Under the pieces are notes generated by a model that did no database searches, had not been told where the DNA came from, and worked only from the letters and a program-made list of their open reading frames with translations. From the NCBI GenBank assembly GCA_030998015.1, contig JARWMV010000079.1:1-64000 (forward strand): a DNA stretch of 64,000 nt. Direction: 5' to 3'. This DNA is from Ceratorhiza oryzae-sativae (lineage: Eukaryota > Basidiomycota > Agaricomycetes > Cantharellales > Ceratobasidiaceae). The first letter of the stretch is position 1, and every line of letters starts with the position of its first letter. Below, one piece after another: positions 22,324-62,258 of this stretch. Made by a program: the position numbers and the translations under genes.

Positions 22324-23637
22324 ATGTCCACACCAAACCCTGCCCCCGCATGGATTCAGTTCGATGCCACTCAGATTCAAGTACCCACCAATCCAGCTGA
22401 CCTACTAGCATTCACCCACACAATCAAGGACACACTGATTGCAATAAATAACAATCTTGCAGTATTCATCAATCAACAGTCGGCTGAACTATCCACTATC
22501 AACACCACTCTCCAGAACCACAATACAAGCCTATCTAACCTTGACACAAACGTAGTCGCGCTCCAGGCTGCAGTCCAAGCACCTGGTACAAGCACCTCTA
22601 TTGCGCGTACTTGAGCACCCAAGTTATCAGTGCCTGCTAAATTTGATGGTTTGGATAAAAACAAAGCGGTATCCTTCAGGGTCGCGGTGGCCCATTATTT
22701 GCAGACTTCCTATCCCTCTGCAACTGCTGATGAGCAGATTGCTTACATCATTTCCTGCCTGGATGGCAAAGCCCACGAATGGCTGGAACCCTACCTGGAA
22801 GATGACATTATCAATGGCAATCCAGTCACTTGGCTCCACAATGTCAATGATTTCTGGACCCAATTTAACACTTGCTGGAACGTTGCCAACAAGACCGAAA
22901 ACTTCAGGGCAAAATTCAAATCACTCAAACAAAAGAATTCAGTCCAAGAATACTTTAAGGACTTCCAGACATATTCCCAGGGCCTTGGCTACAACAACGC
23001 ATCCCTTCGCAATCACTTCTACGATGGTCTCACAGTCAAAATCAAGGAGTTCCTTGTGGCCCAAGACTATGATCACATGGCTGCCAACGTCACCTTGCAA
23101 ACCCTTGCAGACAAGGCACTCAGAATCGATCAGCGTATTGAGTCATTCCAGGCACAAAATCCATCCTCCAAATCTTCCTCTTCCAATGTGGCTAGCACCT
23201 CTACCAAAGCTTCCACCTTGCCATCAACAGCTCCTCCCAAAGGTCAGGCCAGGGAAAAGATGTCTGTTGGGGAAAAGGTGTACATGCTTGGTCCAGATGG
23301 CAAGGCTTGCAAAGGAACAATTTCGGCTATAAACCGCAACGCCAAAGGACAGTCGATTCCCACAATCAAATGGAATGACAGATCATCTGAGGAAACTACC
23401 TTCAAACAAATCCAAAAAGATTTGCATCCGATCGTCGTTGCTCCCTTGGCTCCTACCCTGGCCAAAGGGTCTGGTCCTGGACCTATGGATCTAGATTCAG
23501 TGGGGAAAGGAAAAAAACCTGTAATATGCAGCACTTGTGGTGGTCGTGGCCATTATTCTAGCACTTGTCCCTCCAAACCCTATTCTGGGCAAGCTGCTTC
23601 CCTTTCTGGTGATGAGTTGGAAAACAAGGATGCTTGA
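22324..23637 (+). pseudogene. G3 gag with zinc knuckle
   Basis: The start is MSTPNPAPAWIQFDATQ. A coiled N-terminal part (NNNLAVFINQQSAEL...) reaches a TGA at 22612-22614 and continues in the same frame as the gag core (KFDGLDKNKAVSFRVAVAHY, HEWLEPYLEDD, FWTQFNTCW). It ends with a CCHC zinc knuckle (CSTCGGRGHYSSTC, ~23528-23570) and a stop at 23637. The protein would form the retrotransposon particle and bind RNA. The single TGA replaces a likely CGA (T-stop-APK). Confidence 0.8.
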
Positions 23638-24240
23638 ACATTGACAGAGCAAATGTATCAAGCAAAACCTGTATGGACTTTGAGATATATGCTATAGACA
23701 ATGTATCCCCTTTGAATATATATTTTGTTGCATCTGAAGCCCCGTCTGCTCCAGAAAATAAAAGCATCAACCATATGCAAACCATGCATGGTTGGGCCAT
23801 GATTGAATCAGGTGCATCTTCATGCTTTATACACCCATGCCTAGTTAAACAATATCAAATACCCACTTATAAAAAGAAAAATCCAAAAAAATTAAAAGTT
23901 ATCGATGGTTGTGAAATCTCTTCTGGTATTGTTGATACAGAATGTGTTTTTATTTTAGAAATAGGCAGTCATAAGGAACAATTGGTTCGTAATGTAGCAG
24001 ACATAGGTAGACACACCTTAGTACTAGGAATGTCATGGCTCAAATTACATAATCCAAATATTGACTGGCCAAATAAACGTATTACCTTTGACTCAAACTT
24101 TTGTATAAAAAACTGTGTTCCTGCTTCTAATGTAGTTCTTGGCAATGTTGGTGGTGTTGTTGACCCATTCGATGAAAACCTAGGAGGTGTCAAGGCTTAC
24201 CAACCTCTTGAAGGCATCCCTAGTGTTAAATATACGCATT
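23634..24240 (+). pseudogene. G3 protease region (start of pol)
   Basis: The frame overlaps the gag stop and lies in the -1 frame relative to gag. It contains a retropepsin-like site (GWAMIESGASSCFIHPCL, ESGA in place of the usual DSGA) and a flap-like segment (TLVLGMSWLKLHNPNIDW). The conserved linker PLEGIPSVKYTH ends at a solo LTR inserted at 24241. Loss of the catalytic Asp (D to E) would itself inactivate the protease. Confidence 0.75.
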
Positions 24241-25171
24241 TGTGAAGGTTGTGTAGGGAGGTACGTAAGCACTAGTATGACTGAATGGTCTAAGGCTGTT
24301 ATCAACAAGTATACGTAACAATTAGCCATAGTGGACAAGTTAATGTTACTATGGAAGGGAGTTCGTTATCCTGGTATTACAGTACATGACGTAAGGTATG
24401 GTATGTCTATATATCCTGTAACCGAGAGATGTTACAATGGTCTGTCCGTCGTATAACCCTATGAAGGACTGAGAGTGGGAGTATCCCTGAAGTGCTCGAA
24501 GTCTTTGATATGTCTTCTTTCTGCTGAAGCGTGCTATTGCCTAGTGCTACCTGGTCTTGGTTGGGACTTACACTGGCCTAGTGACGCTTGAGGGGCAACG
24601 GTCAAAGTACAGTCGCTTATTGGGGTACGTGCTACAAGTGTCTACTTGTGAAGGTTAATGACAGAGCAGAGCTCAACGTATATGCACTGGAGCGGAGCTC
24701 GATACAGTGTCACAGGAGCAGAGCTCGATACTGTGAAGTCTCTTGAGTAGGCCTTGAGGCACACACTGAAGGTAGTAAGATATTGATTGTAGTAAAAGTG
24801 AGGTGCCCTCTGAGAGCCTCAGAGGGGTTTCTTATATACATGCAGAACAAGGCAGTACAACAAGGCTATGTTGCACAGCTATCCAGTGCAGACACAGCTA
24901 TGCTATGCTGTGAGCACAGGAATGCTGTACGGCTAGCACAGGAATGCAGTACATCAACACAGCAAGGCTGTACATCGACACAGGATGGCAGTGCAGAGGC
25001 AGTACAGGCAGTGCAAGGCAGTACAAGCAGTGCAATACTAAATATATAGGACAGCCACGTTCTATAAATAGAGAAAAGAGAATATATGAGCCCATGGTAT
25101 GACATGCAGTCACATGACACTTTAGTATACTTGTTTATAAGCGCTGAGTGGCTATGCTAACACATGCAAAC
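24241..25171. repeat. Solo LTR-like insertion inside G3 pol
   Basis: The insert starts TGTGAAGGTTG and ends CAAACCA. The flanks are GCATT (24236-24240) and GCATG (25172-25176), a 4-of-5 duplication. Removing the insert joins KYTH to the following reading frame (LYIVITPRDPGG). The LTR is unusually long at 931 bp. It contains a TATA-like TTCTTATATACATG near 24830 and a run of CAGTACA/CAGTGCA words from 24850 to 25035. Confidence 0.65.
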
Positions 25172-25176
25172 CAGCA

Positions 25177-28115
25177 TGCTCTACATAGTTATCACACCTA
25201 GGGACCCTGGAGGTGTTGTGGTATCAAAACCACTTGAAGGCATCCCAGAGGAACTCCAAGACTATATGGACGTATTTTCTGAGGACAAAGTGATGGAGTT
25301 ACCTCCTCACCATCCATATGACCTTGAGATAGTCCTCAAGGATCAAAATGCACCAGTAAAAGGACTGGTATACCCCCTTTGCCCTTCGGATGATGAGGAA
25401 TTAAGAAGAATACTCAAAGAGCAGTTGGACAAAGGGTTGATCAGGCCCTCCAAATCACAATACAGCTCTCCAGTAATCTTTGTTCCTAAAAAGAATGGCA
25501 AAAGAAGGATGTGTGTCGATTATCGTTCACTCAATTCCAACACAGTACGAAACGTGTATCCCATACCTCTCATTTCCACCTTGGTAGAGAAATTGAGAGG
25601 AGCATGCATATTCACAACTCTGGACCTTAAATCTGGCTATAATCTGGTCAGAATTAAAGAAGGAGATGAATGGAAAACAGTGTTTAAAACAAAATATGGT
25701 CTATTTGAATACTTGGTCATGCCTTTCGGTCTTTGTAATGCTCCAGCCGCCTTCCAGAACTTCATGAACAAGATCTTTAGGGATTTACTAGATGTGTCAG
25801 TCATAGTATACCTTGACGACATACTTATATTTTCCAAAAACCCTGCAGATCACACGAAGCATGTTCAGGAGGTGTTATCCTGACTTAGGAAACACCAACT
25901 ATACTGCAACCTGGAAAAATGTGTCTTCAACGCCTCTGAAGTAGAATACCTAGGTGTAATTGCCAACAGCGAAGGAGTCAAAACAGACCCAAAAAAGGTC
26001 CTGGAAGCGGTTAATTGGGAAACACCACGTACCATAAAGGAAGTGCAGGAAGCACTAGGGTTTTTCAACTACTATCGCTGCTTCATAAAGGACTTTGCAG
26101 GACAAGCTTGGCCTATGTACCAGCTCTTGCATAAAGATGTCCATTGGTGATGGGGTAAGAATGAGGAAGCATCTTTCCAAATTCTGAAAAAAGCACTAGT
26201 TGAATCTCCTGTCTTAATCCAACCAGACATCACAAAGGAATTTATACTGGAATGTGATGCACCCAACTTTTCCACTGGAGCTATCCTTAACCAGTACAGC
26301 AGAGATGGTAAATTGCACCTGGTAGCCTTCTATTCCAAAACTCTATCACCAGCCGAATGAAATTATGATATACATGATAAAGAATTACTGGCTATGATAC
26401 AAGCATTCAAAGAATGGCGTCACTTTCTCAAAGGATCTTAAATCCCTGTCTTGGTACTCTCAGACCATAAAAATCTAGAGTTCTTCCAGACAAAAAGGGA
26501 CTTAAACTGGAGACAAGCAAGGTGGATGGGCTTCCTGGCCGACTACAATTACAGAATCAAATACAGAAAAGGGGCACAAAACAGAAAAGCTGATATACTA
26601 TCTTGACAAGAATCACTTTGGAGAGAGGCAGCTAAAGAGGGGGGTAAAACCCCACCGCTTATCAGCCCTGAGCTTTTCATTTCAGCAATTCTCACCAACC
26701 ATTCCCTCAATGATTTAATCAGGGATGCATTACCAGATGATAAGACTGTATCAAAGATTCTAAAGTCCCTCAAGGAAAACATTCTGGTTAAAGGCTGGCG
26801 TCTAGAAGATGACTTGTTGTACTACCACAACTGCATATATGTACCAAACAAGTCAGAAATCAGACAAGTAGTCATAGAAAGCTGGCATGACAATCCTGCA
26901 GCAGGGCATCCAGGGCATTTCAGGACACTAGATCTCCTATCTTGAGATTACTATTGGTCCGGAATGAAAAAATCTGTTGTCAATTATATTCAGGCATGCG
27001 ACTCATGTATCCAGAACAAGCATTCAAACCAAGCCCCTCCTGGTCTCCTACAACCCATAGACTTACCAAATAAACCCTGGGAGGAAATCACCTATGACTT
27101 GATCACCAGATTACCAATGTCAGAAGGTTACAATGCAATACTCACAGTGGTGGACCGATTATCAAAAATGGTACACTTTATCCCCACACACTCAGGAGCC
27201 ACTGCAGTAGACATTGCAAACCTATTTGTAAACTTTGTCTGGAAACTACATGGATTACCCCAAAAAACCATATCTGACCAAGGCCCTAACTTCAATGCCA
27301 AATTCCTTTGCCAACTGTACAAACACCTAAACATTGAACCACACTACTCTATGGCGTACAGACCACAGGTTGACAGGCAAAGTGAAAGACTTAACCAATT
27401 CGTTGAAATATATCTTTGTCACTACATAAATCACAGACAGACAGATTGGGTGGCAGCATTGCCTATGGCAGAATTTGCATATAATAATGGGAAGCACTCA
27501 GGATCAAGCCACACACCGTTCTTTGCCTGCTATGGTTACAACCCAGACTTCACTGTGGGTAATACCAAAGAAAGCCAGGTACCTGCTGCCAATCAACATG
27601 CTGAACACCTCAAGGAAATCCAAGAAGAGGCCAAGGCTGCTCTAACAATTGCCAATTGAACATACTCTGAATATTATAATTGAAAGCATTGTGAAGCACC
27701 AAAGATTGAAGTTGGATCAAAGGTCTTCCTAGACGTCTCAAATATCAAAACTATACGCCCTTCTAAGAAATTGGATAACAGGCGTTTTGGACCATACAAG
27801 GTACTGGAACAAATCAGGAAACATACCTTCAAACTGGAATTACCCAAATCCATGAAGGTTCATCTGGTATTCCACACTTCACTCCTATTCCCAAAACCAA
27901 TAGATGACTATAACTGGCAACCTGTACCTGTTCCACCAGTGGTCACTCCTGATGGCAAAGAGGAATTTGAAGTTGAAGAAATCCTGGACTCTCGAAAGGT
28001 TGGAAGAAGATTGGAGTATTATGTCAAATGGAAAGGCTATGGACCAGAAGAAAACCTATGGTTACCTAAAGCTGAACTCAAGAATGCACCTGAACAAGTC
28101 AGAGAATTCCACTGA
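25177..28115 (+). pseudogene. G3 reverse transcriptase, RNase H, integrase, chromodomain
   Basis: The reverse transcriptase shows KKNGKRRMCVDYRSLN, LDLKSGYNLVRI, MPFGLCNAPAAFQ and the catalytic VYLDDILIFS (YLDD, ~25805). RNase H follows (ECDAPNFSTGAIL, HDKELLAMIQAFKEW), then the H2C2 finger (HDNPAAGHPGHF ... CDSCIQNKH), the integrase core (WEEITYDLITRLP ... DQGPNFNAKF ... YRPQVDRQSERLNQ) and a chromodomain (EEFEVEEILDSRK ... YYVKWKGYGPEENLW). Eight stops lie in one otherwise open frame: TGA at 25881, 26148, 26358, 26604, 26943, 27657 and 27681, and TAA at 26439. Apart from these the frame is almost uninterrupted over 2.9 kb. Confidence 0.85.
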
Positions 28116-34888: not shown

Positions 34889-37800
34889 ATGCCCGTCTGC
34901 CCTTGCTGCCTCCGAGATTTTGCCACTGACCAGGAACGTCGGGAAAAAGCCCCGGGGCAAATTTGACCCGGTGTGGCAAACCGGGTCGGTTACATCATGT
35001 AACCGCCCGGGCTGTGTAATCTCTACAAATTTGCCCTGTTTACCCATGGCAAATTGTGCAAACCGGGGTAAATAACGGCGTGTTTCACCCGGGGGAAGGC
35101 AAACTGGGAAAATGGGCAAATTGGATGTAATTTGCCCAAATTTGCCTGGGGCTTTTTTCCTGACGAAGTTCGGCTGCACAAGGCCAAGAATTGGGCTCAA
35201 CTGGTTGCTCGTATTGACGTTGCCCGTGCCCAGTGGCGGGTCCAACATGATAACGGCCTAACGCCCGAACAGGGCCTCGGTGGCGACGAAGACGATGAAA
35301 TGCATGGCCCAGCTTTCAGTGAAGATAACCCTGCCCCTGCCAACGCAGGTCTCCATCACGGTATTGATTTGGCGGCCATAATTGCAATGGAGGACGAGGA
35401 TATTTGTGAGTACAAGATTTTGTGAGTCTCGACTAGCTAACTCACCTACTATACCATTCTACTCCCAGAGGATAACATGGATTTCGAGGATTAGGATGAT
35501 GAGGATGAGGAGGTCGACGATCTGTTCATTCCCCCCCCTGGTAAGCCAAATCAACGTTTCCTACCAGTGATAGCGAGCTAACTCTCCTACACCTATTAGA
35601 AGTAGCTGGGCCGCTGCCTGTATATCAAAATCATCCAGTGATAATCGAGGATTGGGAGAGCAAGGATGAACCACAGGCTTTTGAGCATGACGTTGACACC
35701 TCATCCGAAGGTAGTCTCGAGCAAGACCCCGAGTTCCACGAACACAATGGGCTGCTTGGTTTGGATGCCGATAACAAGCTGGAAATGACTGAAGAGGAGT
35801 TATGGGCGTTTCTACGACAGTACATTGGCAATATTGCATTCGAAGAATGGGTTGAGATGTGTAAGCTGTGTTTATTCGAATCGGTTTTGTTCAAATCTAA
35901 CTCATCCATTTAGACAACCCTGACTTGACCGAGACAGACCGCAAGACCCTCAAGTTCCTGGCCGCCCGTCTCTGCTCGCACTTCTCACAGGCAACGTACG
36001 AGGACCTGCGCTTACACGCCTGCGAGGAGCTTGGACTACCCAGCGATTTCGTTGCCTGGCGCCACCTCAAGATACTCTCGGGCTTGGAGTCTCGCCCGTA
36101 CGACATGTGTATTCAATCTTGCGTGTGCTACGTCGGCAAGCACCGAGACCTTGAAGTTTGCCCGTACTGCCAAGAACCCCGATTTAGCAATGGAAACCCC
36201 CGGCGTACTTTCATGTATACCCCCCTTATTCCGCAGCTAATCGCCCTCTTTCAGAATGCCCGTTTCGTCATGAACATGGGGCATCGCGCCAAACACGAGT
36301 TGCATCAAGCCACCCACCCCAACATAATCTCAGATGTCTTGGACGGGGAGATATATCGGACACTGCGGCAGACTCGAGTCAAACCGGATGAGAACTATCG
36401 GTATTTCGATAGTCCCGATGATATTGCACTTGGACTGGGGACTGATGGCTTTTCTATGTTCAAGCGACGACGACACAAGGGGAACTCGACCGCGTGGCCA
36501 CTCATACTGGTCAACTACAACCTTCATACCTCAATTCGGACCCATCTCGAGAACGTCATCTGTGTTGGTGTCATTCCCGGGTCTACAGAGTGCAAGGATA
36601 TAAACTCGTTCCTCGTTCCCCTCGTCGAGGAGCTTTTGCAGCTCGCTGACGGTGTCAACGCGATTAAAGTGGCAGTCGGAATAGACCTTGTACAGGGTGA
36701 TGTTCTTCCGTTCAAGTTACAAGCCTTTCTTATTATTCTATTCGGCGACATCCCGGCAATTTCGAAGCTACTCTTACTTAGGGGGCACAATGCCATGACC
36801 CCGTGCTGAACATGTCTCATATCAGGTACAGCATACCACGGTCAGACGGTGACGTATTATGTTCCTTTGACCCCCCCTAAAGCCCCTGAGGCGGAGCACG
36901 TTGAGGTGGTGTCCCCCGACAAGCTGAATCTTTTCATGCGCACACATGTCAATTTCTTGTACTACTTCAATCGGCTTGCTAGGCTTTCTGACTCCCCAGA
37001 ACGCACCCGACTCTCACAGGAATGTGGACTTCACGGGAAGCCTGTGCTCGCGAGCCTCAAGTCGATCGACCTTTCGAGCTGCGCACCGTACAAGATGATG
37101 CATCTCATATTCGAAAACTTGGTCGTCAATATGGTTAAGCACTGGAAGGGGATATTCAAGTGGATCACGCAGGGCAACGAGCCTTATGTTCTAGGTAATG
37201 ACACATGGAAGCTGATTGGAGAACGGACTGTAGCGGCGGCAAAGACGATGCCGTCGCAGTTTGTCAGTTCGATACCCAATATTGATAAAGACTTCAAACT
37301 GTACACGGCTGAAGCACACTCATTCTGGTTTACATACCTCGCGCCGGTTTTACTGAATGGAGTACTCCCCGATGAGTACTATGAGTAAGTCCGTTTCATG
37401 TATGCTTAACGACTGCACTAACATACTTATTCAAGGCATTTTCTGGCGATGCGTGAGATCATCCTTTTGTGCCTTGAACTCGAGATATCACTTGCACAGG
37501 TGGATGAGCTCGAAGTAAAAGTTCAAGAATGGGTTCAAGAATACGAAAGGTAAGCAACGCAACGACGATTCCAATTAATTCGCTGTATCATTGCCAATAG
37601 GCTTTACTATCAATACGACCACAATCGGCTCCCGGCTTGCGTTCTGACGATTCACGCGCTCCTGCACATACCGCATTATATCCGCCGAACCGGTCCACTT
37701 TCGGCTACATGGTCCTTCGTAATGGAGCGATTTTGTGGATTTTTGCTTAGACCGGCCCTCTTGAATCGTGTCCGACCATACGAGTTTCTCGACAACTACA

Positions 37801-40337: not shown

Positions 40338-43300
40338 TTAGTCTGCCTCAGCAAGATCCTCAAGTATGTCCAATCGTGCAGCAATTGATTCACGGTCCAC
40401 AATATACGAGGCTGGTTGAGGGATGGGAACTGTAAATCATCCAACAAGACATGCAATATCATTTGCATTGATGATCTCGGGATTAGCCAGGTGGCCACCA
40501 GATAGCTTATACTCAACCAGATCAGCACCATGTTCTCGAACACACTTGAGGTGCGGTATGGCTGAAACCAGCGCAAGTGCGAGGGGCTTGAGTGGGGGAG
40601 CAGGACAACCAGCAGCCTCAAGAATTACCTGCAAAAAGTTAGTATCAACAATAATAAATCTCTCAGCTCGACCATAACCCCAGTCCTCTGCTCTAAGCAC
40701 TTGGGGACCAGCACGGTCCCACTGATAGCGGCCAAGCCGAGTCTCATACTGATCATCATGTATGCTCAGCTATGATTCAGCAAAACTATTGTGTTGAGCT
40801 CACCTTGACAAACGATGCATCACGCAACTCTCGATCAGAGCTTGGTGATAAGGCATGCCCACGAATTAGGTCACCACCCCCATTCAGGTCAACCTGCTGC
40901 ATACGACCCCATTGAGTGAAAGCCCGCCCATCAATGGCCTGACGCACAGGTACAGGGTCGATCCCAAGGTAGGCAGCAAGATACGCAGCCACCTTCTGCC
41001 CTGTACTAAGGCTAAGGGGAGTCTCCTGATATGGGTGAGCGAACACAAGATTGGGATGGCCGTCATATCTTGTGCCAGAGACAATTGTGATTCGCTGGCG
41101 CTCAATGTTGAGGTGCTCACGTAGGCTGTAGATGAGCTTGAGTTGGGCAAGCTGGGCGATTTGGAGGATGCGGCGGTTGAGGGATGCATAGGGGAAGCGT
41201 TTGCTGATGTTTGCCTGTGCAAGCGACCCACAGTAACGCTCCATTGGGAATGCCCAGTAACACCAGACAGGGCCCATCATCTCAATGTCATCAGCAACAT
41301 GGAGAAGAGCATGGAGCAGGAGGGTGCAGGCGCGGATACAGCTCCGAGTCTTACGATAGTAAAGCCTTCATTGAGATGTGTGGTTAGCCAAAGAGAATGA
41401 GTGGTAAACAGAATAATGAATGATACGTACTCTTCATACTTTTGTACCCATTGAGCAAACCCTTCCTGGATTGACTTGAGATCATCGCAAGTGATCGAGA
41501 GCGCACAGCATTTGCTGATAAGCTTGACAAGCTCAACAAAGTGCCGATAATAGGCCTCCCTGGTGAACTGGCGACGAAGGAGGGCAGGGCCGAGTAGTGT
41601 TGCGAAAAGTAACATACTCTCCGATGTGGTATGTGAGCGGTGGTCAGCCAGATTCGGAATACGACATCCAAACCGCGAGGGGATGGTGTTGCCGCTCTGA
41701 GCGCAGGTCATGCCAAGCGCTGACCAAATGGAGTTACTGAATATGTAGTCGTCATTTGCGCTCCCAAACTCTTTGTACTTGTGGGAGTGGGTCCAAAGTG
41801 AGATTAGCGTTGGCAGTATGTTTTCGAACATCAGATGCATAAAGTTGTGAGGAAATGAGCCTGGGAAGTCAAGCGAACCGAGTCGAGCAAGGGTTGAGAG
41901 CCCGTTGATGCCGGTTTTGCGGCTACGACGATCTTCCTGGGCATTTGTCTTTGACTTCTCAACATGAAGGGCATGCTGAAGGAATTCATAATGGGTGCGT
42001 TGTGGGAGATTGAGTGGGTCATATGACTGAGGTCCTTCGTCATGAGCAGCATAGGGTTGGGACAAGGGGACATAGTGTGTGTTTGAATTGAGCGCACGGA
42101 TACCAATGATCTTGCAAGCACGGCATGGATGTTTCCCGTTAACACCCTTCATGCACATCATTTTGGCAACCGCCAGCATGTCACCGAAGCAAGTGAGGAG
42201 ATGGGCGCGCAGACAAAATGGGTGCATCTGTTCACCGTTGAAGGCCGCAACACCATGGGCAAGTTCCTCAAGTTCGTCAACAAACGGTTCGAGGAATGTG
42301 TCGAGCTCCTGAGGCGAGTTTGGTCCAGGGATAACACCGAGACATAGCAAATTCTCAAGGCGGTGACGAATGACTGGGTCGAGGTTGTAGTTGAAAACCA
42401 CCAATGGCCAACACTGTTTGGTGCGAGTCTTGAAGGGACCAACCCCATCGGTCGACAATCCAAGAGCAATGTCTGTCGGTGACGAAAAGTAGTGGTGGTT
42501 CTCAGGTTTACCACGCACTTTGACACGACACTTCAACAGGTTGGTATAGTGCTGGCCATCGAATATGTCGCACAAGGCTCCAGGGCGTGGTCGACGTTGT
42601 GCACGATAACCTAGCAGACGTGCCGTCGTAGGGTCTCGGTACATATTGACAAGGCGGGGGATCAGGGGTATGTAGAGGAAGTAGTGTCGAGCTTGAACAC
42701 CGGTGCAAGAACGCTTATCACGTTTGTATCGGTAGGCCCCACAGCGAGGGCATTCAAGGCGCCTCTTATACGGGCCAGTATACGCTACGCACGAGTTGAT
42801 GCAGCAGTCGATGCGGATGCCCTTCATGCCAGTCAACTGGATCATGCGAGAAGTATACTCGCTCTCTGTCGGAAAACCATCAAGGCGGCCGGGGAATGCG
42901 AAAGGGAGTGCTTCAAACTGACGCCCGGTAGCATCCAGGGTCACCTTGTAGTTGAATGCCTCAGCAAGAAGCAGGTCTTCGGGCGAGAGCTGAAAGCCTG
43001 GAATATGATAAGCATTTAAATTGGTGTGATAAGTGAATACACGTACCTCCGTCTTTAGCTATGTCCTCTTGCGTTCGCATGCGGGCAACATCCTCGATTG
43101 ATAGTCCCTTAAGCCACGGCTGTGCCTTGTAGAGAGTCGCCAGTGGATCATCCGCAATGTTTGCTGGTTCAGGTATAAGGGGAGATGGAAACCTGGTCGA
43201 TGGCCCAGCGCCAGGTGAGTCTAAATGGAAGTCCGGATGACGAAGGCGTGCATCCAAGTCCATTCGATCATGTGACCGAGACCGAGACCGAGACCGAGAC

Positions 43301-48593: not shown

Positions 48594-49400
48594 CTACTTG
48601 TGGGGCTGGCGGCTTGCGCAAGTCGCAACGCAAAACCCCCGACTCGAGCGGCGACATAGACGGGAACCAGCCAACTCGCCGCACAACTCGACAGTGGGTC
48701 ACACAGAGTTCATCGATAAGTGGGCAAGCTATCGGGAGTTCGATAACTAATGTATCAATACAACTCACAGGCTGCTACTAAGGCTCAGTCCATTCGCGCC
48801 TCACGGAAGAAGGCCGGTAACTGGTACTTTCGAATAACACAATCTCTTGATCTAACCGATGTGCGATATGGGAACATCGTAACCTCCACCCCCCAATGGA
48901 TTTTTTCCTTTTCTCTTTCATGACCTACACGATACTCTATTTGCTCTATTATCTCTGCCTTTCGTTATGTTCAGTGATGTCTCCAGGTCCCTACAGTTAT
49001 GTGTACGCGACCTCCCACGATATACGAACATTCCATAGCTCAGAAATACGATACATTATTCTACATGTCATTGCGTGAACAGTAAATTATGGCCCAAGGA
49101 CCGGTTCCTTGGCACGGAAAATATGATACGGGAGGACCCATGCACAGTCCCCTGGGGCCGTTTTTTACTTCCCCAGGAGCATCGTCCACGGCACCTGTCT
49201 GAGGTGTCCGGGACTACAAAAAAGGTCCCGAGAACAGTTTGGCACGTTTCAGACATTTCGAGCCGCCAAAAGGCAGCTCCGAAGGCCGAATTCAGACTTT
49301 TTGGCTGTTTATGGAGGCTCGGACCTTAAACTGGTGTTTTGGATCGAGCGCGAGAAGGCCCCAGGGGCATTCTTTATGGACCGGATTGTCCGGTTCCTGG
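48594..49400. other. Segment between CACTA end and element H
   Basis: The first 300 bases are CpG-rich and may be host DNA. A plus-strand reading near 48695-48890 (GHTEFIDKWASYREFD, then ATKAQSIRASRKKAGNWYF) could be two pieces of an exon-containing gene, but I do not recognise it. From about 49085 the DNA is rich in GGTCC/GGACC words (GGACCGG, GGACCC, GGTCCC, GGACCTT) like a transposon subterminal region. It probably belongs with 58379-58435, the sequence on the other side of element H. No complete gene is seen. Confidence 0.4.
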
Positions 49401-49618
49401 TAGACTCCTTCCCAGCCGACGAGCACGTGACGTCAGGGAAAATACAGGGTTCTTTTCACTCATGACTTCGTGCTCGGACGACTGGCCCCAATTGTATGTT
49501 TATTTGTGTTTACCCAGGGCCTCACCCTGTGCTGACACAGAGCTACGCTGTTCGTGCGTCACTCTGAGGTCACTCTGGAACACTCCACGTGACTTTCGCA
49601 GTCATCTCTTGGTCACTC
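49401..49618. repeat. Left 218-bp terminal inverted repeat of element H
   Basis: It pairs with 58152-58369. A frame running through both copies gives the same peptide over about 78 residues, so identity is at or near 100%. The match stops at GGTCACTC (left continues CCTCATC, right continues TTACCCTC in the inverse sense). The helicase start codon lies 45 bp further inside, so the repeat probably carries its promoter. Confidence 0.9.
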
Positions 49619-49662
49619 CCTCATCTATGTACCTCGCATTTTTATAACCTTTAATTTATACA

Positions 49663-52424
49663 ATGCCCATACCTTGGCCCAAGCAGCACATTGGCTTGGA
49701 TGATATCAGGTCGTGTGCTGAGCTATTTTTCAATGTCTCTCCTTGTCTCTTCCAAGCTCAAACATGCCAGCTGCAGCTTGAGCAAAAACATACTATCTTG
49801 GTTTCTCCGACTGGATCTGGGAAATCGCTCACCTTCCTGCTACCGTTCTTGTGGCAATCTGAAGGGATTTGTCTTCTCATTTGTCCCTTACAGTTGCTGG
49901 GCAATCAGCATTCTATTCACCCCGTACTTGAGGTTATTGGTATTCAAGCCATCAACCTAACATCCAAGACAGCTACAGACCAAACATTCAAGGTGTGTGC
50001 AATTTTAAAGCTCAATAGGGACTATTGTACTTACTGTTTCCAGGATATCGCTAGTGGGAAGTACCAACTTGTGGTTACATCCCCAGAGTATGTCGAAGAA
50101 GACACACGTTTTGAGACCTATCTATGGAGATCAACACAGTTTTGTGAGCGAGTTACACGTGTGATTTTTGACGAAGCACACTGTGTTTTGGACTGGGGTG
50201 GATTTCGGCCATCTTACAAGAAACTATCCTTCCTGCCCAATCAAATCCGACATGCAACTTTTCTAGGCTTATCGGCAACCCTTACACCGAAGATGGTCGA
50301 CCAATTGAAGTCATCATTGGGCTTGGGCGACAAAGTAGAAGTTCTTCGATCCTCGAATGATCGACCGAACATTATTCCGGTGGTTCACGAAATGCAACAC
50401 TCGGCACAATCGTTCTTCGACACTGCATTCCTTATTCCGCTTGGTCTAACTACAGACTCTCCACCTCCTCAAAAATTCTTGCTATTTATGAACTCCCGTG
50501 TGCAGTGTGTTGCTGCAGGGAAATTTCTTCGTGGCCGGCTCCCGTGTGAGCTCCGTAATCTTGTGGTCTGGGTACATTCGGATATGTCCCGTGAATTCTG
50601 TATTCGGGCACTTGAAGATCTGCGAGCTGGGCGTATTTTTGGCATTGTATGCACTGACGTTGTCGGAATGGTACGTGTCTCTTAACCATCTTCGCCAATG
50701 TGAGCTCATATAACTCGCTAGGGGATCGATATATCGGATATCGAGTTGATTGTACAGTTTCAGCTACCTACCAAATTCTGTACGCTTTTCCAGCGGTTTG
50801 GCAGATGTGTGCGAAACCCTGCGTTGGTCGGGTTTGCGATTCTCATTGTTGAATTGAAATACTTTGACCATACCAAGAAACGGCTACAAGAGCAGGCAGA
50901 AAAGCGTCAGGCAGCGAAGAAACGAAAGGCCAACAAAAGCGTCGACGCGAATCAAGGTAATGGTGTCTTAGACATCAAACCTGAGTTGGCAACGGTTTCA
51001 TCGTCATCTCAGGCAAACCCAGGCAGTGCGGAGCCTCCTAAGAAACGACATAGGCGTACCCGAAGTGTCGAAGACGTTATGGATACATTCATCAATGCTC
51101 ATGAACGGCGCACATCAACACCTCGATCCGGATGCCGTCGCGTGGCCGGCAATCAGTTTTTTGCCAACCCTGCGATTCCTGAAGGTAATGTTCGCAAAAA
51201 TACACAAGCAAATACATATACTAATACATATCTTCATACGACAGAGGGAAGCAAGGGGTTCTGCTGTACACGTTGCTGTCGACCCCCTCCTCCTGCGTCC
51301 GAGTGCTGCGACGTCTGCAATCCCGAGATTGCCAAATCACTCATGACCGTCACCGATACTCCTCCTACTTCCAAACGTGCTCCACCTCAAGTCCAGCTCC
51401 GAAATGAAGACCCTACTCAATGGTCCACGACTGATCAAGGCCTTCGCGAGGCACTGGAGATCTGGCGCAAGGAGGAGGCGGCAGCGCGCTGGGGACCGAA
51501 CCATATGATTGGAGGGCGAGGTATCCTCGGTAATGAGCAAGTTGAGAGGATTGTGCCTCTGGCTCGCCGTGGCCTGATTCGTACGGCCGAAGACCTCAAG
51601 CGCCACGTTCCAAAGTGGCACTACCACGACCACTACGGCCATCAGATAATCAAGATCGTTCTCAATGCTTATCCCCCTCCCACGAACACACCAACAGCTC
51701 AGCAACCCCCTGTTGTCTCTGGGGGAACAGAAGCGCAGCGCTCTCAAGCCCCCCCTTCCAAGAAACCTCAGGCTCAGGTTCACTGTAGTGCTTGTGGTGA
51801 GGCTGGCCATAACTGTAAGTTTTTTGTGTCGGTCTGATACACTGAGACAGCGGCTGAATCGAATCAATAGCGAGGAATGTTTTCAGATGTAACAAGAAGC
51901 AGAAGGAGCGACAGGACATGATCAAGGCGTCAGAAGCCACACCTGCTCGGCCAGACGACCCCCCCACACTGAAGCATAGCCCATCGCCATCCACTTCGGC
52001 ACTTCCACCGACTAACACCCACCCAGCCCCCATTGCAGCTAACCATTACCCCACTCCATTTTACCCAATCACTCATTACCCACATGCGTATCATCCTGGA
52101 TATCCATCTCATACCACACTTCCTAACCCCATATATTATCCAAATATTAGTACATTGCATTCTTTCCTGACTTCGTTCTCTCCTTATTCATCTACGGCAA
52201 GGTCTACTGCGCGTAATACGTATCCTAATTCGTTTTCACCAACCAGCAGTATTCCATCGACCTCCATTTCAGGCTCAATCGCATCATCAGCAGCGGCTAT
52301 CCACGACTCTCCAGGCGATTCGACGCCAAGCTGGACGCCAACAGCGATAGCGTTCACCGGAGCACGCGATAGTACTCGCCCGGGACAATGTGAGTTCATT
52401 TTCTCAGCTCGAAGATGTTCTTGA
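49663..52424 (+). CDS. RecQ-type DEAH helicase with zinc knuckle (element H)
   Basis: The start is MPIPWPKQHIGLDDIRS. Motif I is SPTGSGKSLTF (residues ~48-58), motif II FDEAHCVLDWGGFRP (DEAH, ~152), motif III LSATLTP, a domain-2 segment (HSDMSREFCIRALEDLRAG ... VCTDVVGMGIDISDIELIVQ), and motif VI QRFGRCVRN, a variant of QRxGRxGR. A Cys cluster (CCTRCCRPPPPASECCDVC) may replace the RecQ zinc domain. A CCHC knuckle (CSACGEAGHN-SRNVFRC) is created by splicing 51815-51870. Other introns are 49993-50043, 50671-50721 and possibly 51185-51244. The Pro/Ser/Tyr-rich tail ends at 52424 and overlaps the convergent gene. It is expected to unwind DNA with ATP. In H it may serve transposition. No stop codons are seen. 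Confidence 0.85.
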
Positions 52425-53692
52425 AGTCGAGCTAATGTTTCTTTCATCACAGGGGGTGGATGGTAGACGGTGCGCTCAGTCAAACCGTAGCTGCGCTCAA
52501 TGAGACCATGTATATTTTGATAATCCATAATCAACGGCGATTCCTTGATGAGTCTTTGGACCGTGCGATTTGAACTGGAGCCAGAGTACAGACATTTACT
52601 CATGAAGTTGTTCCGTTCGACTAGCCAGTCAACGCCCCGGAACCCATCCGCTTTGCCCGTAGGATTGACCAACCAATTCTCTTGAACGATTTTAGCGAGT
52701 TCTGGCAGCCAACCTCCATCCAATTGGATCAGGAATTCAGTTATGTGTCGTGCGTATTTATGATTTTTAGTATGTCTCCATAAATATACCCACAACGGTA
52801 GCAGGTCACACATGCACTGGATGTCGCCATACTTTGAGGCTCGCGTGATCGAGACGTAGAGCAGCGCGTCTCGATTGAATAATCGCATTTGGTCCTTGAT
52901 CATATCGCCCTCGGTTGTCCCAGGTTGGGCTGGAGAATACATTGTATCGGCGACATACAACTCAACAAGCTCAGCCGACAAACATTCGATATCCACCCAG
53001 TCTGGTTTCCAATTTTTCAGATCAACACCATATTTCTCCTTGACAAGCAACCTCCAACAATCAACAATAGAGGCGTGTAGGACATGCTGGATCACATTGT
53101 GCGTTCGACAAAACCCCGGGTTACTACTAAGCTTTCCTTCTTCGCGGGGTCGCAGGATTGAACAGCATCGAAATATCGAGTGCGGGCTAGGAGTATGGCC
53201 CAAGCGAGGCTTGTCCGGTTCAATATACAGTCGCCAAAGTGAGTTAGCCATGGCCATTCGAGTATGAAACCAGCCAATTATAAAGACAATAAACTGAAGT
53301 CGATTCCGTGCAGTAGCTTCAATCGATCGGCTCTCAAGAAGACTCAATATATGCTTGTAGGTTCCCATATCGCCATGCATTATAAGTATAATCTTCTCCA
53401 AGTCCTCGTCGGTTATATTTGTCTGATTCAGAATATGTTCTATTGCTGTGGCATTCCCGTGATTGGTCGAGACATTTATTTCTGCCGCACGAAGAGGTAT
53501 TTGTTCCGTTTTGATTGGCTCTATTGACCCTCGACTGACTGGCGACCCAAGCTCATCTGCACGAAATTTCTCTTTTAGTGCGGGCGCGATTGTATCAGTG
53601 TCCTCGCTGAGTAGCATTTGTCTGACGTGCCATGCATACAACGACTTGACGCTTCGTTCGTCCTCCTGAGCAAATGATCCTTTCGCTACTAG
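52184..53692 (-). pseudogene. DUF6589-like protein, C-terminal part (element H)
   Basis: The conserved blocks recall the DUF6589 family of fungi and some invertebrates: LIMHGDMGTYKHILSLLESR, FIVFIIGWFHTRMAMANSLW, ILRPREEGKLSSNPGF, a ...HKYARHITEFLIQL block, and ENWLVNPTGKADGFRGVDWL followed by VERNNFMSK. The true sequence enters from the hAT target duplication at 53685-53692 (reading LVAKGSF). The frame upstream of that to 53818 belongs to the hAT end. It ends LRAVDLAVDE-stop at 52184, overlapping the helicase 3' end by about 240 bp. No stop codon interrupts it. Function is unknown; it is a candidate transposase of element H. Family assignment is from memory of motifs. Confidence 0.7.
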
Positions 53693-56600
53693 TAGGGCTC
53701 CTGCGGATGCGGTTCGGATCGAATGAGCTAGAAAACCGGCGAATATTACCTCATCAACAGAACAGAGCCGCGTACAATCCGCCCCACTCGCGGTTAGCCG
53801 ATGCTGATCGGATATCACGTGTCATTATGACGTGTGCTGCGAACACAAAACCCAATTTGTGTACAGACATAGAGAATGATAATATATACATGTCCCCAAT
53901 TATGCAGAACCCGATGCGTATCTCAATTTCTTCTCAAGTATTATTCTGGCACGGTAGTTCATCAGAGCGGATTGTGTCTGCAGAAAGCAAGGCACGTCGC
54001 AACGATATCACATCCCGACCTGCACTGAAAACTCGCTCCACGGCAACAGATGTACCTGAGGGAGCGGTTAGGTTGGAAGGCACGGTTGTAGCGGCGCTAG
54101 TGACATACCTGGTATACACAGGAAGTCTCGAGCCATTGCGGCAAGTCGAGGGAAGCGATGCGCATTCAGGTGCCACTAATCTAAAGGCGGCAAGGTGGTA
54201 ACTTCCTCCTTAAGATACTCGCGTATCTCAGCTACCGAAGAAGCAAAGCCTGGTAGAACGCTGTCTCGCCTAGGTAGTTGTTGCTTCCAAGCACGTGTAA
54301 ACTTGTCATCGTTATCATCAGCAATCGGAGTGGGCGAAATTTGCGATTCAGGTGCTGAAGTGTGAGCATTGTTGCCTGAATAGAATTTGCTACACGTGTC
54401 ATATAGAGATCTTGTGCAATCCTCAACCCACTCTTCAGAGAACAAATCTGATGTGTGCGGCTGTTGAGCTTTGAATAGTTCGCCCTTAAATCGAGGATCT
54501 AAGACTAATTGAATGTTAGTGAATAGGTTTGCTACAATTGGGCTCAAGATAGCTTACTTGTCGCAAAGAAATAGTACTCTGAATCATAAGTAGACTGGTC
54601 AAAGAATTCCAGGAGCTTTTCCTTGCAAGCCCGTACACCATTCAGCAATTCAGGCGATCTCTTGACTGAAATGCTTTTCTCTAAAGCTGATATATGCGCA
54701 ATCAGGACAGAGTATATGCGCAATGAGAAGCTGAGAGTGGGATATTTCTCTGCGGCCATCATGGACGAAGCGCCGCAAAAGAACTAGGAAAAAAAGTGAG
54801 CTCATGTGTGTGCTTTCTTATCTGTAACAATCAAAATACCTTGAGCCAGTTACATATCTGGGTCACAATCTCCCAGTCGCGCTTTGAGAGTGCATAATGC
54901 CGATATATCTTGATTTTTGGGTGCGATGTAAGCGAGTCAATTGTCTGGAAGGAATACTCATTAATATTCACTACAGAACCAACTGTCAAGGTGAGTTTTA
55001 GTGTACCTCAGAAAACTCCAAAGCACGCTCAAGCATATAGAATGTGGAGTTCCACCGGGTTACGACATCTAAAATAAGATTTTTTATCTTCTTCCGTTTG
55101 TAAGGCTTGTTTATGTCGGCAGCCTTCTGCTCATGGTAGTCCTCAATGGATTCAGCAATCGATCGAAACAGGTCCATACGCTGGGGTGAAGAGCGGATAA
55201 GCTTAACAAGCTTTCGAATCTATATGTGCAAATACTATGTGATTAATTGATTTTTAAATGAGATGAACCATTCACGTACCTTGTCGATTGCTGAAGAGAG
55301 ATTAACAGCAAAGTCAGCTATTGAGCTGTCATCGTCCTCATTAGCCTCCTGATTGTCTGATGCTACGACCATCTCCGCATCTTCAGCTGTAAGATTCAGG
55401 TCTGTCGGATCGAAATCTCGTATATCTGTCGATGGCGGGATTGCAGAAACGCCTCGTAACAGCGACATGACGGCAAGGTGGATTACATGAGATAGACAAC
55501 GTATATGACCTTTTTCGCCGTCCCAGCGTGTAGTGGAGGTGGATCGTTCTAGGGCAGCAGCAAGGTGGCGCACAAGAGTACCATTACTACTTGCATTATC
55601 GCTCACAAGAGCTAATAGTTTGTCCCCGATTCCCAACTCAGATATAGTTGTAGCCACGGCATTTGCCATGTTCTGGCCATCATGCGCCCTGTGCAGTTCA
55701 ACGAAGTCAATCAGGCTTTCCTCCAGCCACCAATTGTGGGTAATCCAACTGGCCATTATTGCAAGAAATGCAATCTTATTTGAAGACGTCCAGGCATCGC
55801 AGGCAATAGCCATGAGTCCTGGTAAAGATCTCAGATATTGCTTCATTGAGCGGCGCATGGTTTCGGTGTGGCTGAAAACACGTTCCCGAATGGCCTCAGC
55901 CTTAAGCAGATGACCTTCAAGTGCTGGTTTGAGATATGTAAGAATATCTTGAAACTCCTCGTTTTCAACTTCGCTGAAGGGCTGATTGCCAGTAACAATC
56001 CATCTTGTCAAGCATCGGAATAGCTCATCCATATTAAACAACTGAAGCAGTAGCATATAGTCAGTATATAAACAAGAAGTAGATATAAACTTATACACAC
56101 ACCTCCTGAGCAACCGTTGACATATCCTGAACTCCCTGTTCCGGAGAAGTGCTGTTCTCGGCCTTCGGTCTTGCTGCCGGACCCGAAGATTCGTCAACTA
56201 GACAGGCGTTTTCCCATATGAGTGCGTGCTTTTCTTTCAAGTGAAGACGAGCGTTTGACGTAGAACCTCGTGATCGTCCACCTCTGATCCATTTCCATCC
56301 TTTTCCTGCTCGACAAATGCCACAGCGTAGAGTGCATGAAACCAGCCGCCCGAGATCATCTAATACAGGATCAAACATATCGACGAAATTGTACACAAGT
56401 GAACGATTTTGGGAGAAGTGTACACTGTCTGCAGCGTTACAAATCGAGGCACGATAACTCATAGCACGTCGGCAGGCACGAACAGCATCAGGTACAACAG
56501 CCGGATCATCGGAAAGAGGGCAGTTGTCGCTATCGATGTCATTAATGCGACGACGTTTGGATGGTTGCCCTTCGGGCAATGTAGGAGAAACCTTAACAGA

Positions 56601-56852
56601 AGACATAGCAAATCAGTTTTGGGATCGATTGATGCGCCGCCGCTGCTTATATATACGCGCCTCGAAGGCGGGATTTGGTTGGGCTGGTCAATTTGAAATC
56701 CCCGCCGCTGCTGACTCACCAACCGAGAACATTCTCGGCTATTCGCAGTTTTCGGTTTCGGATGTATGCAAGTCCCGGCTCGGCTATCCTATCCACAAAC
56801 CGAAATTCGATCCGTCGGTTTGTACGGATAAACCGAAACCGCAGGGGCCCTA
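53693..56852 (-). mobile_element. hAT element (3160 bp) inserted in the DUF6589-like gene
   Basis: The left end TAGGGCTCCTGCGG (53693) pairs with the complement of 56839-56852 (TAGGGCCCCTGCGG). Subterminal CGGTTCGG/CGGTTTCGG words follow on both sides. The 8-bp duplication GCTACTAG is exact at 53685-53692 and 56853-56860. It contains one multi-exon hAT transposase gene on the minus strand with a single clear nonsense codon. It is complete in structure and probably recent. Confidence 0.92.
53935..56606 (-). pseudogene. hAT transposase, multi-exon, one nonsense codon
   Basis: The start MSSVKVSPTLPEGQPSKRRR is followed by a BED-type zinc finger (CTLRCGICRAG ... ARLHLKEKHALIWE). After an intron at about 56045-56103 comes the catalytic region (MAIACDAWTSSNKIAFLAIM with a candidate Asp, LALVSDNASSNGTLVRHL with a second, HIRCLSHVIHLAV), then LDVVTRWNSTFYMLERALEF, LDPRFKGELF, and the C-terminal dimerisation motif (NAHRFPRLAAMARDFLCIP, then after an intron GTSVAVERVFSAGRDVISLR). 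A TAG near 54188 replaces a conserved tryptophan (D-stop-WHLNAHRF). Apart from that the exons chain well. The enzyme would cut and paste elements with TAGGG ends. Confidence 0.85.
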
Positions 56853-58132
56853 GCTACTAGATCCAAGAAGCGATCGTGTGAGAGATCAACTGGAGGTGCG
56901 TCGCTTGCTCTATCGGGATTGTGTACCGAGTTAGCCCACAGTTCTTCAGAAATGCAAAGATCCTCTTTTTTTGTTCCTGGCCGGAGCGGGACAAGAGTGG
57001 CCGTTGTTAAATGGGCAAGTTTCGTGCCATGTGTAAGTGTTGGCTGCTCGCTACCGTACGTGACCTCGAGGTTATCATAGGCAGCACCAAAGACCATATT
57101 ATGAAGGTGTGTTTTCAGTCTTTTTCCAGCTTCCTTTGACATTCGATCACTCATTCGGTCGATTGTGCTAGGTGCAATACTGAGGCCAGCATGCGACATC
57201 ATCTCGATAACTTTTGTAGGCGTATTCGTCGAGTGCGCAAACATTCCAACAACGGTTTGCATCCCATTGCATCGCATGTTGCTATTCCTCATGCATATAG
57301 TAAACAAAGTAGCTCGTCGCTTTTGTATCAATTTAGGTGAGTCTTTGTTCGCAGTACGGTCGAACGTTGCACTCACAATGCTTGTACGCTTCATCTGTTT
57401 TAGGTGGTAATCGCCTTCTTTCCTTCTTTTTGATCCCACACTCGTCTTCCAATTCGGAGGACTGTGACGAGGCTCAGACTGTAATTCGGCGCTTTGGTTC
57501 GGAACTGGAACGCTGCTTTCGCCCTCGTCATCTGACTCCTCCGAGTCCGCACCCCAATCATCATCTGGCAAATCATCATCGCCCGAGACTACTTCTCTTT
57601 TTGACTCGGCAGGTTGTCTCAGCCCACTTCGCTTGAGTTCGGTCACATCGAATTCCAACTTGGTAAGATAGTCCCTGTTGCGAGCAAATGATGCTGACAT
57701 TGTGTGCATTATGGGAACGTTCAGTAACACTCCGAAAAGTCTCCACAGGTGAGGGCAGCGCTCGTGGATTATCTTGCCTGCTCTCATCGTTGTAAATCGC
57801 TCAAACTGGGAGGTCGCATCCGAGCGTGAGTTGAAGTGAAACCCAGCACTTGGAGTGATGATTGTATGCATCTCTTCGACATATTGGTGAGTCGTAATAT
57901 TTCTAGCTAGCTTTTTTATGATCCCTTGTGTAGTTGAAAAGCTTAGCAAATGAGACATAACTAAATTGAGATTTTTTGGAGTACATAGATTACCGCGTAG
58001 AGCTTGTGCGTGGCTAGTCAAGTGGTAGCATTCCAAGCCGGGTTGTATATATGCACATATGAGATCCGTCAGTGAGATGTTCTCCTGTGTAAAAAGCTCT
58101 GTTGCTAAGAAAAATTGTCGCTGTGTGAGCAT
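56853..58132 (-). pseudogene. DUF6589-like protein, N-terminal part (element H)
   Basis: The frame opens MLTQRQFFLATELF about 20 bp inside the right terminal repeat. It runs 426 codons without stop to the hAT insertion at LDLVA. Motifs are FERFTTMRAGKIIHERCPHL, RATLFTICMRNSNMRCNGMQ, VGMFAHSTNTPTKVIEMMSH, SIAPSTIDRMSDRMSKEAG and FGAAYDNLEVTYG (Asp at about residue 353), then LCISEELWANSVHNPD. A Ser/Asp/Glu-rich, probably disordered segment lies at residues ~190-220. This order is typical of the N-terminal half of DUF6589 proteins. Codons beyond 56852 come from the hAT end and are not part of the protein. Confidence 0.7.
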
Positions 58133-58151
58133 ACTGCAGGGTGGAGGGTAA

Positions 58152-58369
58152 GAGTGACCAAGAGATGACTGCGAAAGTCACGTGGAGTGTTCCAGAGTGA
58201 CCTCAGAGTGACGCACGAACAGCGTAGCTCTGTGTCAGCACAGGGTGAGGCCCTGGGTAAACACAAATAAACATACAATTGGGGCCAGTCGTCCGAGCAC
58301 GAAGTCATGAGTGAAAAGAACCCTGTATTTTCCCTGACGTCACGTGCTCGTCGGCTGGGAAGGAGTCTA
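58152..58369. repeat. Right 218-bp terminal inverted repeat of element H
   Basis: This is the inverse of 49401-49618. It ends GGAGTCTA at 58369 and is followed by the 9-bp duplication GGTTCCTGG. The DUF6589-like frame starts just inside it, so this copy probably carries that gene's promoter. Confidence 0.9.
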
Positions 58370-58378
58370 GGTTCCTGG

Positions 58379-60093: not shown

Positions 60094-62258
60094 GACACCC
60101 ATGTAAAGTACTCACCAGAATATATGTATGCGCGAAGACATGTATGACCTAAGTTGAATTTACCTGTATGGATTTCTGATATCTGGGCGCCGAAAACTTA
60201 CCTGGGTCGATTTACATGGGACATGTATGATCAGACCGGTATACGGGGGTCACCTACCTAAGTTTAGGTGGAATTCAATTCACAGTGTTAAGACGGTAGC
60301 CGAGCGAACGGGAAAGCGGATTGGAGCGAGCATTTTGCTTGTCCCGCGCGGTACCATCGGATGCGCGCTGGCGTGGAGGCTACTGGGAGGGAGGCAGCCG
60401 CAAGGGGTTCAAAATGCGGATACTGCATTTGTGGGTAAAATCACAATTTATGACCGCAGGCTGGGAGCGGCGAAGGGCGCGCGAGAGAAAGCAAGGCGCG
60501 GTGTGTGTAGGATTCACCGACGCATGAGGTATAGAGCGAGTGAAAAGAATCCGTTGGGCGAATGGAGGATACTTTTTCCGGCTGTTGGATACACAAGGAA
60601 CGTAGCCTGGTATTGAGATCTAGGCAACGATTCAAGAGTTAAGAAATTCGAGCGCAGGACGGAGAGCGGCGAGCAGTTCACGAGGAGATTAATCGAGCGT
60701 AAGATTTGCCAGCGATGGATGCGTAGAAGGTACTGTTGAATTTACAATCATATGCGTGTATGTATGCGCATATTAGTTTCTGTTTCGTATCCCCCTCTCT
60801 GATATCATGCGCGAGTTCGCGGGAACCCCCTCTCTCCTTCCTTAGTTCTCTACCTTCGTAGTTGAGCTAAGGTATCGTATTTTCTTTTCTTTTCATGTAT
60901 TTGATTCTTACTGTACTCTGAAGTACTATTTGTATCTTAGGTACAGTATATACAAGTTCTCTACCTTCGTAGTTGAGCTAAGTACGATTTGTATCTTAGC
61001 CACGAGATACCTCCCTGCGTGAGAGGTACATCAGGGCGCTGGTCGACATTTGACATCCCAGCGAGCGGTTGCGTTGATCCCAAGTGTCTAAACGTCTATA
61101 GAAGGTTGAAGGCCGATGCGTCTTGAGCATCAATCGTTTAGACAGAGTCCAATTCCGATCATACGAGATCGATCATTTTGGACGATATCGCTGCAAAATT
61201 AATGAGAACCGTGAGCAAAGGAATCCATTTGCTCCATGGATGATAGAAAAGCGAGGCGGATAAGCATCATAACCGGGGAGTAGATAAGGAATGAAGAATG
61301 CGGATGGAAATTAGCTGCAGTATTTTATTCGGCTCGTGTGGATGTGAGGAGGAGCAACTCGCCTTGTCCGCGCGTCGTTAATGGTAGCCGCGGATATGTG
61401 CCATAATCGTGCACCTCGCCGTCACTGTGAAGCTATATGGCATGATCAACTCTGGGACGGGGATGGCTGGGAGGCGGTATATATAAACGACTCGAAAACG
61501 ACAAAGCAGACGTGCTTGGGGGCTGGTGCTCATTGTGTGTCGCAAGCTGCAACGGCAGGTGCTTTTCTCCCCAGGCTGACATGGCGCTGTTCTGTGGAAG
61601 CGATCATGGTCATGGTCGTGGCGCGGTGTCGCGGGTGCGACTGTGGCTGTGCAGTCTGACCATTGTGGTTCCGTTCCCCGAGCGAGATCTCAACATTCCC
61701 CACTGTCTATGCAACATATGCGTCTACGAGAAAATTTTGGCTAAATGAATTCTCACGCTAACTCATGCTGACGATCACTGGTTTTACGCTGCAGGCAAGA
61801 GTTCCAAAGTAAATGACATTCAACCAGCGTGTAGAATGGATCCGTATCTCAATAGTACGCGTTATATACCGTCATACTGGTCTGCCTTTTCCCTCACCTG
61901 AATTCATTTCAATAGTTAATAGCTCTCTATTGGAGCTTAATATCTACCGCTGTGCTACGTAAACGGATATGAAACCCGACCAAGTTGGTTGCCATTGATG
62001 AAATTTCGCTTGAGACCTGGATTCATGCTCTGGTCACCCGTGCAATGTCTCTGAACCCGGCGATCGTAGGAGACGCTATTTATCCTTCAACCAGGCCGCC
62101 AATTTCTGAGGTTTCTTCAAGCCACAGCCAGTGAACCAATGGATTCAATAATGGAAGGAGAGCTTGAACGCGTTTTGATTACAGCGGATATTGAAGCCGA
62201 CAATCAGGGACAAGCAAACAAGGAAGTACAGAGAATACATATTTCAGAAGTGAAGGAT
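60094..62258. other. Intergenic region, no gene recognised
   Basis: Short frames (60227-60616 plus, 61381-61659 plus, 62139-62378 plus) lack recognisable motifs, and the last is antisense to the WD40 gene tail. A 28-bp direct repeat (AGTTCTCTACCTTCGTAGTT...) occurs at 60844-60871 and 60955-60982, each followed by TGTATCTTAG. The CpG-rich, non-repetitive texture suggests genuine host intergenic DNA at the right edge of the transposon cluster. Confidence 0.45.

Follow-up and report, generated by a model that had tools for sequence, protein, structure and literature searches.

Does a RecQ-type helicase gene next to a DUF6589 gene, the two enclosed by long inverted repeats, represent a DNA transposon in the genome of the fungus Ceratorhiza oryzae-sativae, and if so, which gene moves it? 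We address this for positions 49401-58369 of the window, the whole analysed stretch of 64,000 nucleotides at positions 1 to 64,000 of the forward strand of contig JARWMV010000079.1 (assembly GCA_030998015.1; contig C79 below, with handles of the same form for other contigs). A preliminary description, made from the letters of the window, proposed an undescribed bounded transposon with the two genes as cargo or machinery. We find that the element is a genuine, bounded, mobile DNA transposon, and consider it highly probable that it is of the autonomous DDE type, most likely belonging to the AcademH lineage of the Academ superfamily.

Element borders and empty site

The terminal inverted repeats (TIRs) start with TAGACTCCTTCCCAG and occupy 49401-49618 (plus strand) and 58152-58369 (minus strand, same sequence). 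The arms are complementary at 218 of 218 positions and similarity ends at both borders; the coordinates given previously are exact. The 9-mer GGTTCCTGG lies at 49392-49400 and, as an exact copy, at 58370-58378. The 500-bp left flank of the element matches C51:33698-34197 and the 500-bp right flank matches C51:34189-34688 (99% each), and the two matches overlap by exactly nine bases, the duplicated ones. This empty site is identical to the joined flanks over 100 bp (100 of 100 bases), with GGTTCCTGG present once, and C51 is collinear with C79 beyond it as well. It is a pre-insertion allele or a duplicate of the window locus, and with its single 9-mer it proves insertion of the element. The locus thus has the features of a DDE transposon (TIRs, target duplication within a narrow length range, empty site), and the 9-bp repeat is a true target-site duplication.

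Genes of the element

The interior is taken up by two genes that converge: the plus strand encodes a RecQ-type helicase and the minus strand a DUF6589 protein. Profile matches agree with the earlier naming of both. The 5′ part of the DUF6589 gene (56853-58132, minus strand, ATG at 58132) encodes the first catalytic Asp, recognized by eye in AYDN, and the 3′ part (52184-53684, minus strand; PF20231, E=5.6e-86) encodes the second catalytic Asp, a conserved His, and the catalytic Glu (residues read in locus L014). Between the parts is a later hAT-like insertion (53693-56852, minus strand), foreign to the original element and also recognized in the preliminary description. It is flanked by the 8-bp target duplication GCTACTAG (53685-53692, second copy 56853-56860), and 13 of its 14 terminal bases match; its label comes from these terminal bases and the duplication, plus one weak hAT-like_RNase-H match below cutoff. 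Joined across the insertion, DUF6589 has an uninterrupted frame of 941 codons between stops, and so the gene was apparently intact at the time of the hit. In the window copy the transposase gene is now broken.

DUF6589 has a conserved D-D-E triad. Its structure, predicted rather than solved, has a DDE-transposase fold, with DDE recombinases at ranks 1-35 of the 50 listed structural matches (a family missing from these lists is not thereby excluded), and the DUF6589 domain alone is likewise predicted to form an RNase H-type DDE catalytic domain. By predicted fold and triad, the identification of the DUF6589 protein as the DDE transposase of the element is strongly supported. The preliminary description had stated that the element encodes no standard transposase. 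Indeed, none of the known transposase Pfam families matches DUF6589: PF20231 is the sole match above cutoff, there is no match to the MULE family, and there is none above cutoff to the hAT families, whose fold is similar to the predicted one. But DUF6589 itself would be the transposase. Its sequence profile has no transposase match among PDB sequences (one kinase at E 1.5).

Three protein searches, which require 5-residue words in common and lengths within a set window (two of them scored the best 7999 and 7998 candidates), gave at least 33, 30, and at least 331 DUF6589 relatives, with 120 of the 331 listed. Every listed relative carries PF20231, and the named source organisms that we recognized are presumably all Agaricomycete fungi. 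The closest among the matches listed are Ceratobasidium proteins, at 84% to the C232 copy, which makes a Ceratobasidium-like host probable. Two of the 120 carry a further Pfam domain, PF26138 in one and PF12937, which we take to be an F-box, in the other.

The first coding part of the helicase gene (49663-50670, plus strand, ATG at 49663) matches DEAD in a Pfam profile search (E=2.8e-21) and recQ_fam (E=3.6e-27, 95 bits), the latter under the NCBI whole-protein cutoff of 220 because this open reading frame (ORF) is only part of the protein. A predicted GT..AG intron (50671-50721, plus strand), whose splicing keeps the frame through TDVVGMGIDI, leads to the remainder of the helicase (50722-51837, plus strand, stop ending at 51837). 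This second part has a Helicase_C match below cutoff (E=0.0077) and, by eye, a Cys-rich stretch like the RecQ zinc site and a zinc-knuckle-like end. The first part may contain a further in-frame intron, as the C232 copy is split there.

A family of elements in the genome

PF20231 has at least 51 matches in the genome, grouped by hand into at least 26 loci. The 218-bp repeat recurs on C9, where the left arm (161814-162031) is 83% identical and the right arm, reaching 183166, is in two pieces (82% and 94%); the target duplication there is GTTTATAGT. Group 1 elements begin with the window terminus and have convergent genes. Their 17-bp terminus, with one mismatch allowed, occurs at 18 sites in 48.8 Mb versus 0 for a reversed control, so these ends are not due to chance, and all 18 sites are element ends at 10 DUF6589 loci. 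Group 2 elements begin with TAGTCTCTTCC; the inverted ends are short or imperfect and the genes divergent. Their 22-bp end, with three mismatches allowed, has 19 sites versus 0 for the control. Elements C83, C232, and C7 each span 5.5 kb, with both genes between the TIRs. In two pairs of group 2 elements at different sites, the members share 99.8% identity over 6.6-6.7 kb, which indicates recent movement.

Both ends are delimited in 14 elements (9 of group 1 and 5 of group 2). Exact duplications of 7-9 bp flank 13 of them, and among 182 mispaired flanks not one has a duplication as long as 6 bp, which together with the empty site bears out the earlier claim of a bounded transposon. Such elements have thus been mobilized repeatedly. 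The duplication is 9 bp in eight elements (C79, C9, C7, C244a, C251, C243, plus C235a and C10, for which the script gave 8 before the end was shifted by one base), 8 bp in four (C232a, C83, C240, and C43), 7 bp in C233, and an imperfect 8-mer in one.

Within group 1, 8 bp occurs in C83, C240, C232a, and C241 (imperfect) and 9 bp in C79, C9, C7, and C244a; duplication length may go with subfamily among these elements. C43, to which no subfamily is assigned, also has 8 bp. CpG observed/expected is 0.06 for C241:1057735-1063253 versus 0.91 for C83:13800-19321, and 292 of 328 C-to-T/G-to-A differences between these two copies are in CpG. The ratio is 0.59 in C244a and C240. This pattern points to decay or hypermutation directed at CpG in some copies.

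The region C237:58851-114480 holds five DUF6589 loci in about 56 kb, at least one next to a group 2 end, and is a nest of these transposons. A group 2 terminus is found a short way beyond the right edge of the window (C79:67634). On C240, the left arm of a 216-bp inverted repeat (277529-277744 and 285784-285999, 97%) exactly adjoins a group 1 element.

Co-inheritance of the RecQ and DUF6589 genes

A hand tally places a RecQ gene of the matching type at 22 of the 26 DUF6589 loci. On C9 the pair is 17 kb apart, within one TIR-bounded element that has extra sequence. Pairwise identities of the RecQ proteins and of the DUF6589 proteins have a rank correlation of 0.88 (12 elements, 66 pairs), and of 0.83 within group 1 (28 pairs), a value as high as which was found in 0 of 2000 permutations. 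DUF6589 is only 20-27% identical between groups 1 and 2, yet each group has both genes. This joint divergence, with both genes present in distant groups, makes RecQ a standing partner rather than recent cargo. RecQ and DUF6589 travel as one co-inherited unit, which explains their amplification; of the two roles offered earlier, predicted fold and triad favor machinery over cargo.

Several observations weigh against this account or fall outside it. RecQ was not detected at four of the 26 DUF6589 loci (C237:77412; C55, near the contig start; C51, with one end only; and C3:185150), where the constant pairing considered in the preliminary description fails. Conversely, six RecQ loci are without a nearby DUF6589 gene (C236, C23, C99, C3:1450, C25, and C11), of which C99 and C25 carry group 2 ends. 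Some group 2 end sites adjoin no DUF6589 match, and such ends lie on C99, C25, C39, C18, and C33, contigs that have no match at all. The C241 8-mer has one mismatch and is no exact duplication. A search for group 1 ends at C3:351 kb found none. The preliminary description had staked its reading on repeats that flank 9-bp duplications, as they do here, and on gene copies accompanied by repeats; some copies do lack one or both ends (C51 and C3:351 kb, for example), and the transposon reading survives.

Classification and alternative explanations

AcademH was reportedly defined by Kojima in 2020. The nuclease of AcademX is XPG. Excerpts of PMC10045372 give target duplications of 9 or 10 bp for AcademH and 3 or 4 bp for AcademX, seemingly tied to the helicase and the nuclease, respectively, and an excerpt of PMC10799480 describes AcademH as present at low copy number in Basidiomycota, Ascomycota, and Mucoromycota. 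According to an excerpt of PMC6416283, PF00270/recQ_fam domains are present in fungal Academ copies; 81% of Academ copies hold recognizable domains (DEAD helicase, recQ_fam) and hence are often annotated as host genes.

The elements analyzed here share with AcademH, as so described, a helicase gene in the element (at the 22 loci above), occurrence in Basidiomycota, and, for the window copy, a 9-bp duplication. Across the 14 delimited elements the agreement in length is partial, some leaving 8 bp rather than the 9-10 bp given in the excerpts. XPG has no match in the seven ORFs scanned of 42 listed in the window (both element genes included), and none in the Pfam annotation of the best 120 of 331 DUF6589 relatives. 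A fusion of DUF6589 to XPG or a helicase, which would prove Academ kinship, was not seen in the Pfam annotation of the three protein searches, a weak test. In these elements the helicase and the transposase are encoded by separate genes, which converge in group 1 and diverge in group 2. By described helicase type, duplication length of the window copy, and fungal distribution, AcademH is the most likely filing. The label "undescribed" is then probably wrong, as these sources place helicase-bearing AcademH and recQ_fam Academ in print, while naming DUF6589 as the transposase of such elements may be new. We found no open-licence papers on DUF6589, on RecQ with DUF6589, or on Academ with Rhizoctonia, though such work may be in print elsewhere.

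It is possible, but unlikely, that DUF6589 elements are a DDE superfamily of their own outside Academ that acquired RecQ independently. This would parallel KolobokH, a fungal transposon with a transposase and a RecQ helicase, the latter downstream of the transposase domain in an excerpt of PMC9587614, so that RecQ is reported from a second superfamily. The lack of a matching Pfam transposase family, the ends TAGACTCC/TAGTCTCT, and the 8-bp duplications of some elements speak for separation, whereas helicase type, duplication length of the window copy, and fungal distribution fit AcademH and fungal Academ as the excerpts present them. Such a superfamily would extend across mushroom-forming fungi with RecQ as standing partner and a stagger of 8 or 9 bp depending on the subfamily, and many Agaricomycetes DUF6589 and RecQ gene models would be its copies, a picture we likewise hold to be improbable.

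Kolobok duplicates TTAA, whereas the duplications here are 7-9 bp and of varied sequence. The hAT (Hermes) and P element transposases resemble DUF6589 in predicted RNase H-type fold and in a long helical stretch between the second Asp and the Glu, and both systems make 8-bp duplications; DUF6589 has no sequence match to them, and the elements here differ in their long TIRs and RecQ partner. MULE/MuDR elements also have long TIRs and 8-9-bp duplications, but the absence of a MULE Pfam match and the RecQ partner separate them from these elements. Helitrons lack the TIRs and target duplications that are present here.

A further reading, that another transposase acting in trans drives the movement, with DUF6589 and RecQ as cargo or bystanders, is very improbable. 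The hAT-like insertion in the window copy and the extra Pfam domains of two listed DUF6589 relatives are in its favor, but the predicted DDE fold and the triad, the restriction of the 17-bp group 1 terminus to DUF6589 loci, the retention of both genes across elements about 25% identical, and the 5.5-kb elements with both genes between the TIRs oppose it. We reject it based on predicted fold, triad, and co-divergence.

A subtelomeric RecQ repeat or segmental duplication has almost no chance of being the explanation: fungi are known to have telomere-linked RecQ repeats, in which RecQ genes are likewise amplified, but the excerpts seen describe them as subtelomeric and describe no TIR or target duplication, and we reject them for the window locus given its exact TIR borders, the target duplications at many sites, the empty site, and the position of some copies far from contig ends (C235:752 kb of 1.77 Mb, for example).

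Proposed mechanism and implications

For an AcademH-type transposon, we propose that the DUF6589 protein would bind the long TIRs, excise the element, and join its 3′ ends to target DNA with a 9-bp stagger (8-bp in some elements), which host repair would turn into the target duplication. The RecQ-type helicase probably unwinds the ends, or helps repair or replication through the transposition intermediate. The TIRs probably carry the promoters of both genes; in the window copy the DUF6589 start codon is 20 bp and the RecQ start codon 45 bp inside the TIR border, and start codons are about 34 and 80 bp inside in the C232 copy (by hand). The evidence fits cut-and-paste and a copying mode alike.

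PF20231 (DUF6589), still a "family of unknown function" in the Pfam version used here, gains a likely function. The results suggest that, in mushroom genomes, many gene models of the DUF6589 and RecQ families belong to transposons and not to the host. With nearly identical copies and an empty site available, helicase-assisted DDE transposition can be tested, and the question arises of the role of RecQ in the element.

Other features of the window

The window also contains ORFs with Retrotrans_gag and reverse transcriptase matches, a long terminal repeat-type retroelement (22615-25880), and two Transposase_21 (tnp2) ORFs, presumably CACTA-type (35901-36806 and 41280-43058). An ORF at 2372-3430 with Tf2-1-like SH3 and chromodomain matches is probably the integrase end of a retroelement. 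A repeat of about 290 bp (approximately 60734-61024), mostly 93-96% identical at dozens of genome sites, is possibly a short non-autonomous element.
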